Assembly: GCA_003134555.1 (NCBI GenBank)
Contig: PLBO01000130.1
Coordinates: 1 to 49,881 of the forward strand
Source of the DNA: Actinomycetota bacterium
Lineage (GTDB): Bacteria > Actinomycetota > Acidimicrobiia > IMCC26256 > PALSA-610
Direction: 5' to 3'
DNA length: 49,881 bases
Shown piece after piece: positions 7,324-16,226 of this stretch. A program made the translations under genes and the position numbers. Within the stretch, counting starts at the first letter, position 1. Every line of letters begins with the position of its first letter. The notes below the pieces were generated by a model. That model did no database searches. It had not been told where the DNA came from and saw only the letters and a list, made by a program, of their open reading frames with translations.

Positions 7324-7397
7324 GGGCGCGTGGCTCAGTCTGGCAGAGCACCTGCATGACGCGCAGGGGGTCGGGGGTTCGAATCCCTCCGCGCCCA
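7324..7397 (+). tRNA. tRNA-Val(GAC)
   Basis: A full cloverleaf is visible. The acceptor is GGGCGCG/CGCGCCC, the D stem GCTC/GAGC, and the anticodon stem CCTGC/GCAGG with loop ATGACGC, giving anticodon GAC. The variable loop is GGGTC and the T arm has loop TTCGAAT. The discriminator base is A and CCA is not encoded. TATCCT about 15 bases upstream could be its -10 box. Confidence 0.97.
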
Positions 7398-7553
7398 CCC
7401 CAAAAGTCCTGGTCAGGGAAGGCGTCGTCGCCGACCGAGGGCGGGTAGGTGGTACCGGGAGCGCTCGCGACCGCCGTACTCTGAACGGAGTCCTCGCAGA
7501 CGGCTCACAAGCCCGGCCCGACCAGCCGATGAGCTGTCGAAGGACGGAGACGC
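7398..7553 (+). promoter_or_regulatory. Leader and candidate promoter of aceE
   Basis: This 156-base gap between tRNA-Val and aceE holds no gene. TACTCT at 7477-7482 is a candidate -10 box, which would give a leader of about 65 bases. The Shine-Dalgarno AGGACGGAG lies just before the ATG. A GGTGGTACCG sequence near 7449 recalls the T-box tRNA-binding motif, but there is no room for the specifier stem. Confidence 0.3.
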
Positions 7554-14228: not shown

Positions 14229-14305
14229 GGGCGGTTAGCTCAGTTGGCTAGAGCGCATCCTTCACACGGATGAGGTCGGAGGTTCGAGTCCTCTACCGCC
14301 CACCA
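14229..14305 (+). tRNA. tRNA-Val(CAC)
   Basis: A full cloverleaf is visible. The acceptor is GGGCGGT/ACCGCCC, the D stem GCTC/GAGC, and the anticodon stem CATCC/GGATG with loop TTCACAC, giving anticodon CAC. The variable loop is AGGTC and the T arm GGAGG/CCTCT with TTCGAGT. The 3' CCA is encoded, unlike in the other valine tRNA of this window. Confidence 0.97.
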
Positions 14306-14311
14306 CAACCT

Positions 14312-15286
14312 TCAGCGGGTGGCTACGCCGGGCCCGAGCCGGCGTCGTAAGTCGGCTTCGTACTCACGCACGAGCGGGCCCGCGTGTTGTTCCTTCAGCC
14401 GCTTGAGCGTGGGGTATCCGGCGTCTCGCTCGGCGTCCCACTCGTCGGCGAACCGGCCCGACTCGATGTCGTCGGCCAGGCCGCGCATCGTCGCGGCGAA
14501 ATCGAGGTGGTCGAAGCGGCCGCGGCGAGTGAGCTGGCCGTATTGGCTGGTCGGCGAGTGGAACTCGGACTGCACGGCGTAGCCCACCTCGCGCAACAAC
14601 CGATACGTGCGCTCGACCTCACCCGAAAGCACGAGTTCGACGACGATCGCCTCGATCGGGATGTCGTGCTCCAGCATCGTCTGCACGAACGCGTTGTTCA
14701 CGGCGGTCAACGCGGGTGAAAGCACCTGCTCGACACCGAGATCGAGCACCGCCTCCTGCATCGGTGTGAGCGCGAGCGCGCCCTGGCGCAGACCGCCGAT
14801 CGCGCCGGCAATCGCGAGGACGCGGGCGAGCGCGCGCCCGGTGGCGTCGTGATGGACGCCGACCGCGGTGATGAACCCGACGCCTTCCTCGTAGCAGCGG
14901 CGTACCTCGGGGCCGAGCATCCGGGGCGCGACCATCCCGCTGTCGCCGGGTGGATCCAAACGGCCGAATCCGAGCGTGTAACCGCTCGCGACGATCACGC
15001 ACGAGTCGGGGCGCGGCGCAAGTGGCAGGAGCGCGATCACGTCGTCGGGGACGAGGATGCAGATGACGTCGGCGTCGTTCGCGGCCTCCACGTCGTGCGC
15101 CTCGAAGCCGTCGGCCACGGCTTGCTCGCGCGTGTCGTCGCGGCGCACGCACACGACCGGGACGCACCCGCTGTCGCGCAAGTTGAGCGCCCACGAGCGT
15201 CCCTGGTTGCCGTACCCGACGACCGCGACCCGCTGCCCGTCCAGAACGCCGGGATCGGCGTCGCTCTCGTAATAGATCGTGGTCAC
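14312..15286 (-). CDS. Divergent ketol-acid reductoisomerase paralogue, likely altered activity
   Basis: The 324-residue protein aligns along its length with class I IlvC. It has the N-terminal YYESDAD, the NADP-binding GYGNQGRSWALNLRDSG, ADVICILVPDD and the helical knot domain, ending in EWDAERDAG and LKRLKEQHA. Key active-site residues differ. The family's FAHGF is VASGY (His lost) and PKGPGH is PRMLGP (Lys to Arg, His lost). Of the acidic metal ligands, DLxxEQ is kept (LDLGVEQ) but the second Glu pair is only partly kept (VVELVLSGE). True acetolactate isomerisation is therefore unlikely, and the protein may be a reductase for another 2-keto or imine substrate. No ilvB or ilvN lies nearby. 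The GTG start has GAGGAGG upstream. Confidence 0.8.
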   Translation of the reverse strand: MTTIYYESDADPGVLDGQRVAVVGYGNQGRSWALNLRDSGCVPVVCVRRDDTREQAVADGFEAHDVEAANDADVICILVPDDVIALLPLAPRPDSCVIVASGYTLGFGRLDPPGDSGMVAPRMLGPEVRRCYEEGVGFITAVGVHHDATGRALARVLAIAGAIGGLRQGALALTPMQEAVLDLGVEQVLSPALTAVNNAFVQTMLEHDIPIEAIVVELVLSGEVERTYRLLREVGYAVQSEFHSPTSQYGQLTRRGRFDHLDFAATMRGLADDIESGRFADEWDAERDAGYPTLKRLKEQHAGPLVREYEADLRRRLGPGVATR

Positions 15287-15398: not shown

Positions 15399-16226
15399 AT
15401 GACGATCGAAGTCGTCCTGTTGGGCACGGGAAATCCGCTACCGGATCGCGACCGCGCGGGCGCGGCGACGCTCGTGCGCGCCGGTGGGCGGACGATGCTC
15501 TTCGACGCCGGCCGGGCGGTGTGCATGCGCCTCGCGGCCGCCGGCGTGTTGCCGGTCATGCTCGACGCGGTATTCCTCACGCATCTCCACAGCGATCACA
15601 TCTGTGATCTCAACGACGTCGTGACCACCCAATGGGTGATGAGCCCGATGCCGAAGACGTTGCGCGTGTTCGGTCCGCCCCGGACCAGTGAGGTCATGGA
15701 CGGATTGCGCGCGATGTTGGTTCCCGATGTCGAGTATCGCCTCGCACATCATGCCGATCTCACGTGGGGACCACAGGTCGAGGTGATCGAGGTGTCGCCG
15801 GGCGTCGTGTTCGACGACGACGGCCTACGCGTCATCGCGGCGCGGACCGATCACCGGCCCGTCGAACCCACACTCGGCTACCGGGTGGAGTTCGACGGCA
15901 AAGCCGTCGTGCTCGCGGGCGACACCGTGCCGTGCGCCGGACTCGACCACCTTTGTCGAGGCGCCGACGTGTACGTGCAGACGGTCCTGCGCGACGACCT
16001 CGTGCGCATGGTCCCGATGCAGCGGTTCGTCGACACGATCGACTACCACTCGACCGTCGAGCAAGCCGCGCAGACCGCCGCCCGCGGCGGAGTCGGCACC
16101 CTGATGCTCACCCATCAGATCCCCACACCGGGGCCCGGCACCGCAGACGAGTGGGTCGCCCTGGCGCGTCAGCACTTCGCCGGCGACATCATCTTCGGCG
16201 CAGACCTCGCCTCGATCTCGATCTGA
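15399..16226 (+). CDS. Metallo-beta-lactamase-fold hydrolase (RNase Z/arylsulfatase-like)
   Basis: This 275-residue protein has the start GTGNPLPDRDRAGAATLV typical of RNase Z-like and arylsulfatase-like MBL proteins. The zinc-binding HLHSDH is near residue 63, followed by Asp in AGDTVPCAG and a closing LTHQIPTPG with a His ligand. The length is slightly short for RNase Z, and the exosite arm is not evident, so a small-molecule hydrolase is likelier than a tRNA-processing enzyme. The ATG has GAGGAGC before it. TACGTT about 24 bases upstream may be the -10 box. Confidence 0.85.
   Translation: MTIEVVLLGTGNPLPDRDRAGAATLVRAGGRTMLFDAGRAVCMRLAAAGVLPVMLDAVFLTHLHSDHICDLNDVVTTQWVMSPMPKTLRVFGPPRTSEVMDGLRAMLVPDVEYRLAHHADLTWGPQVEVIEVSPGVVFDDDGLRVIAARTDHRPVEPTLGYRVEFDGKAVVLAGDTVPCAGLDHLCRGADVYVQTVLRDDLVRMVPMQRFVDTIDYHSTVEQAAQTAARGGVGTLMLTHQIPTPGPGTADEWVALARQHFAGDIIFGADLASISI

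Follow-up and report, generated by a model that had tools for sequence, protein, structure and literature searches.

The window analysed here, a stretch of 49,881 nucleotides, contains a gene that resembles ilvC, the gene of ketol-acid reductoisomerase (KARI), and the question raised by this locus is whether its product performs the KARI reaction of branched-chain synthesis or a different one. The gene is located as follows:

14312..15286, minus strand: open reading frame of the KARI-fold paralogue, 324 aa, GTG start, GAGGAGG 10 nt upstream

The GC content at the three codon positions of this frame is 75/46/88%, which fits a genuine gene of a GC-rich genome. The protein matches the Pfam families KARI_N, the N-terminal Rossmann domain (5.4e-34; 117.6 bits, gathering score 20.6), and KARI_C, the C-terminal knotted domain (6e-16; 59.5 bits, gathering score 29.1), which together span its full length. 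Scores with the two NCBIfam equivalog models of IlvC are far below the respective cut-offs (175.4 vs 336 and 149.9 vs 226.15). The AlphaFold model (mean pLDDT 90.5) aligns over 320 residues with the domain-duplicated KARI 5e4r (Z 32.3, rmsd 2.4), and the PDB matches listed for it are exclusively KARIs or the KARI-fold enzyme BurG. Domain matches and structural alignment thus confirm the original prediction of a protein of class I IlvC type over its whole length. The window protein is a real, conserved member of a non-canonical class I KARI subfamily.

A tRNA-Val gene (CAC, 14229-14305) converges on the KARI-like gene and ends 7 bases from its 3′ end; a second tRNA-Val gene (GAC) is found at 7324-7399. 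The divergent neighbour at 15399-16226 encodes an MBL-fold hydrolase, for which the nearest models, ribonuclease Z and GntH, both score below cut-off, and which was not seen beside the paralogue in congeners. As had been predicted, no branched-chain gene was seen among the window genes scanned.

The residues expected in the active site fall into five segments:

14978..14989, minus strand: ASGY, residues 100-103; canonical IlvC has AHGF, the catalytic His being replaced by Ser101
14909..14926, minus strand: PRMLGP, residues 121-126; canonical PKGPGH, with Lys replaced by Arg122 and His by Pro126
14726..14755, minus strand: EAVLDLGVEQ, residues 178-187; predicted metal ligands Asp182 and Glu186 kept
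14618..14638, minus strand: ELVLSGE, residues 217-223; predicted metal ligands Glu217 and Glu223 kept; the canonical ETLHE lacks the 2-residue insertion
14537..14560, minus strand: HSPTSQYG, residues 243-250; substrate-side Ser244 kept, preceded directly by His243

The protein was aligned with 44 orthologues of 63-82% identity from at least five phyla (Actinomycetota, Myxococcota, Binatota, Acidobacteriota and Gammaproteobacteria). S101, R122, M123, D182, E186, E217, S221, G222, E223, H243 and S244 are identical in all of them and P126 in 43. The His of AHGF and the Lys of PKGPGH, which characterise IlvC (EC 1.1.1.86), are thus absent from all 44 sequences. His243 is likewise distinctive, as the canonical IlvC of the same genome reads ISDTAEYG at this site and lacks that His. 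These results agree with the original prediction in that both segments are altered, with loss of two His and the Lys, and that the DLxxEQ motif is retained. It was mistaken in stating that one Glu of the second metal pair is not clearly kept: the insertion (ELVLSGE instead of ETLHE) hides the match in the alignment, and all four predicted Mg ligands of a KARI (D182, E186, E217, E223) are present in 44/44 orthologues.

The gene is widely distributed. A scan of species genomes yielded 435 related loci, and the best 80 of these include Acidimicrobiia, Myxococcota, Binatota, Acidobacteriota, Spongiibacteraceae, Halioglobus, Mycobacterium shimoidei and M. fragae. Comparison with near relatives gave dN/dS values of about 0.1-0.2 (0.10-0.18), indicating strong purifying selection. 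The loss of two residues held catalytic in IlvC might suggest that the protein is a remnant of that enzyme, either dead in catalysis or regulatory, but the metal ligands and even the replacing residues are fully conserved across phyla. Based on this invariance and on the dN/dS values, the paralogue is not a decayed ilvC, and a dead or regulatory remnant is highly improbable.

The true ilvC, which was to be sought elsewhere in the genome, was found at G000:C83:178266-179237, directly downstream of ilvN and with AHGF and PKGPGH intact. Of 61 related genomes, 28 have the paralogue, and a canonical ilvC accompanies it in 25. In the other three carriers (G024, G001 and G019) neither canonical ilvC nor ilvN was found. 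We rejected the possibility that the paralogue is the sole KARI of these three, since with ilvN missing as well an assembly gap that comprises the operon is the simpler reading.

A tree of IlvC-like proteins (41 rows) also separates the two types. The window clade is supported by 100/99, and the canonical-type rows are set apart by a long branch (length 1.34, support 100/100). Together with the ilvC found elsewhere and the lack of ilv linkage, this upholds the proposal that the paralogue is distinct from the housekeeping gene. Sso-KARI of Saccharolobus solfataricus and the protein of locus L147 form long rows in this tree, the exact placement of which is unsure. Intermediates with 40-46% identity exist in other actinobacterial lineages, and further members of the branch were found on plasmids of haloarchaea and Sulfitobacter. 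All wider-branch members compared have APRM and a 2-residue insertion preceding the last metal Glu. The HSxTSQYG motif is likewise present, except in L147 and, at one position, in the Sulfitobacter copy, while the members from Halomarina and Haladaptatus sp. YSMS36 retain the His at the AHGF position. Judged by its sequence, with APRM, an SGE-type insertion and HSxTSQYG, the window protein is part of this wider non-canonical KARI branch, which includes Sso-KARI (6jcv). Our literature search found no paper that describes such a KARI-like family. In Sulfitobacter sp. DSM 110093 (L159:8001-8855), a gene that is annotated as hypothetical and lies among IS elements is nearly identical to that of S. 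dubius but shorter.

For the window clade itself, no conserved partner gene was found in the loci compared, even within the genus. The largest common neighbourhood (P450, SDR, TauD, EF-G-like) is confined to one lineage with 12-13 loci. In five loci of one Acidimicrobiia lineage (L101, L120, L121, L124 and L139), the gene is divergent from a P450 gene, with an SDR and a TauD dioxygenase gene further out. Some Acidimicrobiia have genes for a Fur-family regulator and a rubrerythrin-like protein after the KARI-like gene (L069:8020-8904, judged by eye). Two candidate partnerships were rejected. LarA was found in 4 of the 61 genomes and the mycofactocin protein MftC above cut-off in 5, and none of these genomes carries the paralogue.

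Three gammaproteobacterial loci are the only ones in which a transporter of the SBF (bile-acid-symporter) family was seen beside or near the gene. It follows on the same strand (L104:10630-11583, L134:7986-8930, L141:5276-6214), directly adjoins the gene in two of the three loci and is a possible clue to the substrate. It would also suit a ketopantoate reductase that replaces PanE, as does the fact that most of these genomes have PanB and no PanE domain; in Corynebacterium glutamicum, IlvC substitutes for PanE (PMC4353338). The phylogenetic profile shows no association of the paralogue with the absence of PanE, which is present in 10/28 carriers vs 11/33 non-carriers (Fisher p = 1.0, 61 genomes), and 22 genomes lack both. 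We therefore rejected this function, which we consider very unlikely.

Clearer contexts come from sister clades, which share 36-46% identity with the window protein. In Halomarina and Haladaptatus sp. YSMS36, the gene follows that of a mandelate-racemase-family (MR/MLE) dehydratase, among SDR genes and a sugar ABC transporter. Sulfitobacter dubius has it between a GntR regulator with a TRAP transporter and an aldehyde dehydrogenase (ALDH), with a glycerate kinase near. In a Rubrobacteria-like lineage, a name guessed from gene content, it occurs with DeoR, a LarA-like protein, a cyclase-family hydrolase, an MFS transporter, a KdgT permease and a PdxA-like dehydrogenase. Two other Haladaptatus plasmids showed no catabolic context around the gene. 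The sister-clade loci point to catabolism of hydroxy acids or sugar acids and hence to a branch that is in part catabolic; by analogy, such a role may be carried over to the window clade.

The chief alternative is that the protein works as a second acetolactate KARI, in which Ser and Arg together with His243 would stand in for the lost His and Lys. This view draws its weight from Sso-KARI, the nearest solved relative, in which the same residues are replaced and which has been both deposited and described as a KARI. It shares ASGY, APRM[LV]G, the 2-residue insertion (ASGE, of the SGE type) and HSxTSQYG with the window protein, and its structure contains Mg2+, NADPH and CPD, an inhibitor of KARI. 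Reportedly, it is active, with dual specificity for NADH and NADPH. The original argument that loss of His and Lys precludes acetolactate isomerisation is therefore unsafe, and acetolactate activity of the window protein is conceivable, the more so as all KARI metal ligands are kept. However, the canonical ilvC adjoins ilvN in the same genome, the paralogue shows no linkage to ilv or leu genes in the inspected loci and the sister clades sit within catabolic clusters. On balance, a second acetolactate KARI appears unlikely.

The loop that binds the cofactor bears on the type of redox chemistry:

15128..15154, minus strand: cofactor loop VCVRRDDTR, residues 45-53; Arg48 in 43/44 and Asp50 in 44/44 orthologues

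An Arg at the position of Arg48 is often a phosphate ligand and is usual in NADP-binding KARIs. Asp50 occupies the phosphate-binding position, at which canonical KARIs have Ser, and aligns with Asp51 of BurG. Together with Asn48, Asp51 of BurG is reported to keep out the phosphate of NADP (PMC9359912), and acidic residues at this position serve to pick NADH-preferring KARIs (PMC5940873). Invariant Asp50 and the precedent of BurG make it likely that the window clade prefers NAD(H) over plain NADP(H), although the Arg48 kept in 43/44 leaves this choice short of certain. That this is an NADP site, as originally described, is doubtful.

BurG also provides the model for a related possibility, in which NAD would take part in a transient redox step that rearranges the substrate and leaves its net oxidation state unchanged. 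BurG is a KARI-fold enzyme with an NAD-type loop and two Mg2+ (PMC9359912), the model of the window protein fits its structures with Z of about 30 and the acidic residue at the phosphate position is common to both. Since BurG retains the AHG histidine and acts in a biosynthetic cluster, none of which was seen around the window gene, we regard this reaction as improbable.

In KARIs, two Mg2+ hold the substrate oxygens during exchange of a hydride between the nicotinamide and C2, and isomerisation is the more demanding step. Active-site mutants of E. coli IlvC are said to have kept reductase and lost isomerase activity. Canonical KARIs are promiscuous and reduce several 2-keto acids (PMC4353338). 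With the metal ligands intact and the His/Lys pair changed, the simplest reading of the window protein is a dehydrogenase or reductase, to whose reaction a rearrangement may be coupled. We infer its metal use, cofactor use, reaction, direction and substrate class. Our favoured explanation, held with modest confidence, is a dehydrogenase or oxido-isomerase of 2-hydroxy/2-keto acids that uses two Mg, is probably linked to NAD and acts outside branched-chain synthesis. The two-Mg2+ site of the KARI fold would chelate a small 2-hydroxy or 2-keto acid by its carboxylate and C2 oxygen, and hydride would be exchanged between C2 and the nicotinamide of a cofactor that is most likely NAD(H). The pocket would be remodelled by the changes from His to Ser and from Lys to Arg, the longer loop of the second-pair Glu and the new His beside the substrate Ser. 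Given this remodelling, acetolactate is most likely not the substrate. The enzyme would then serve as a dehydrogenase, reductase or oxido-isomerase in a step of catabolism or salvage, alongside a separate housekeeping IlvC. The suggestion of a reductase or dehydrogenase for another substrate, made from the sequence at the outset, thus remains the best reading and gains indirect support from the sister-clade loci, with Sso-KARI as the strongest counter-evidence.

A wider reading extends this to the whole branch as a cross-phylum, catabolic and largely unrecognised group of KARIs. These would use NAD for oxidative KARI chemistry on branched or sugar-derived hydroxy acids, with Ser, Arg and the new His replacing the His/Lys pair; we put this joint reading forward as speculative. 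Public plasmid records label branch members ilvC, with terms for valine and isoleucine biosynthesis, even though the surroundings of several suggest catabolism. An erroneous label would introduce a wrong reaction into metabolic reconstructions. If the reaction of the branch differs, its members form a natural series in which to ask what KARI residues the alkyl shift requires and what residues hydride transfer does; if it is the same, the accepted requirement for His and Lys needs revision.

Compared to known systems, the window protein is most similar in its motifs to archaeal Sso-KARI, the S. solfataricus ‘putative ketol-acid reductoisomerase 2’ (6jcv, 6jcz, 6jd2). Besides the motifs named above, both have Asp at the phosphate-binding position and all four metal ligands. 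They differ in that identity is 36%, Sso-KARI is on a separate long branch and has a loop Asn in place of Val47, and the window clade has LGPEVR after PRM. The genome's own class I IlvC (C83 copy; EC 1.1.1.86) shares the fold, the GYGNQG/GYGSQG motif, Asp plus three Glu and the knotted-domain Ser. At about 36% identity to it, the window protein lacks the His of AHGF and both Lys and His of PKGPGH, and has Asp50, the SGE insertion and the HS motif. D-apionate oxidoisomerase ApnO (EC 1.1.1.421) performs the KARI reaction in reverse on a sugar acid and is a chemical analogy only. The cyclopropanol synthase BurG (7pcc and others; PMC9359912) is a further case of the KARI fold redirected to another reaction while a separate ilvC is kept, with two Mg2+ (predicted in the window protein) and the acidic residue. 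It differs in its AHG, its Asn48 and its polyketide cluster. As the window protein has ASGY and V47 and shares only the Asp of the Asn48/Asp51 loop, it is not of the BurG type. A BurG-like KARI that looks broken, as tblastn matched it in two pieces, was seen on a Rhizobium lusitanum plasmid (L157:7001-8541), beside genes for a methyltransferase, a diaminopimelate decarboxylase-like protein and polyketide synthases. The IlvC2 paralogues of Streptomyces (PMC4353338) are likewise extra ilvC copies with a shifted substrate range, but they are recent and 97% identical to IlvC1, whereas the window protein has about 36% identity to IlvC.
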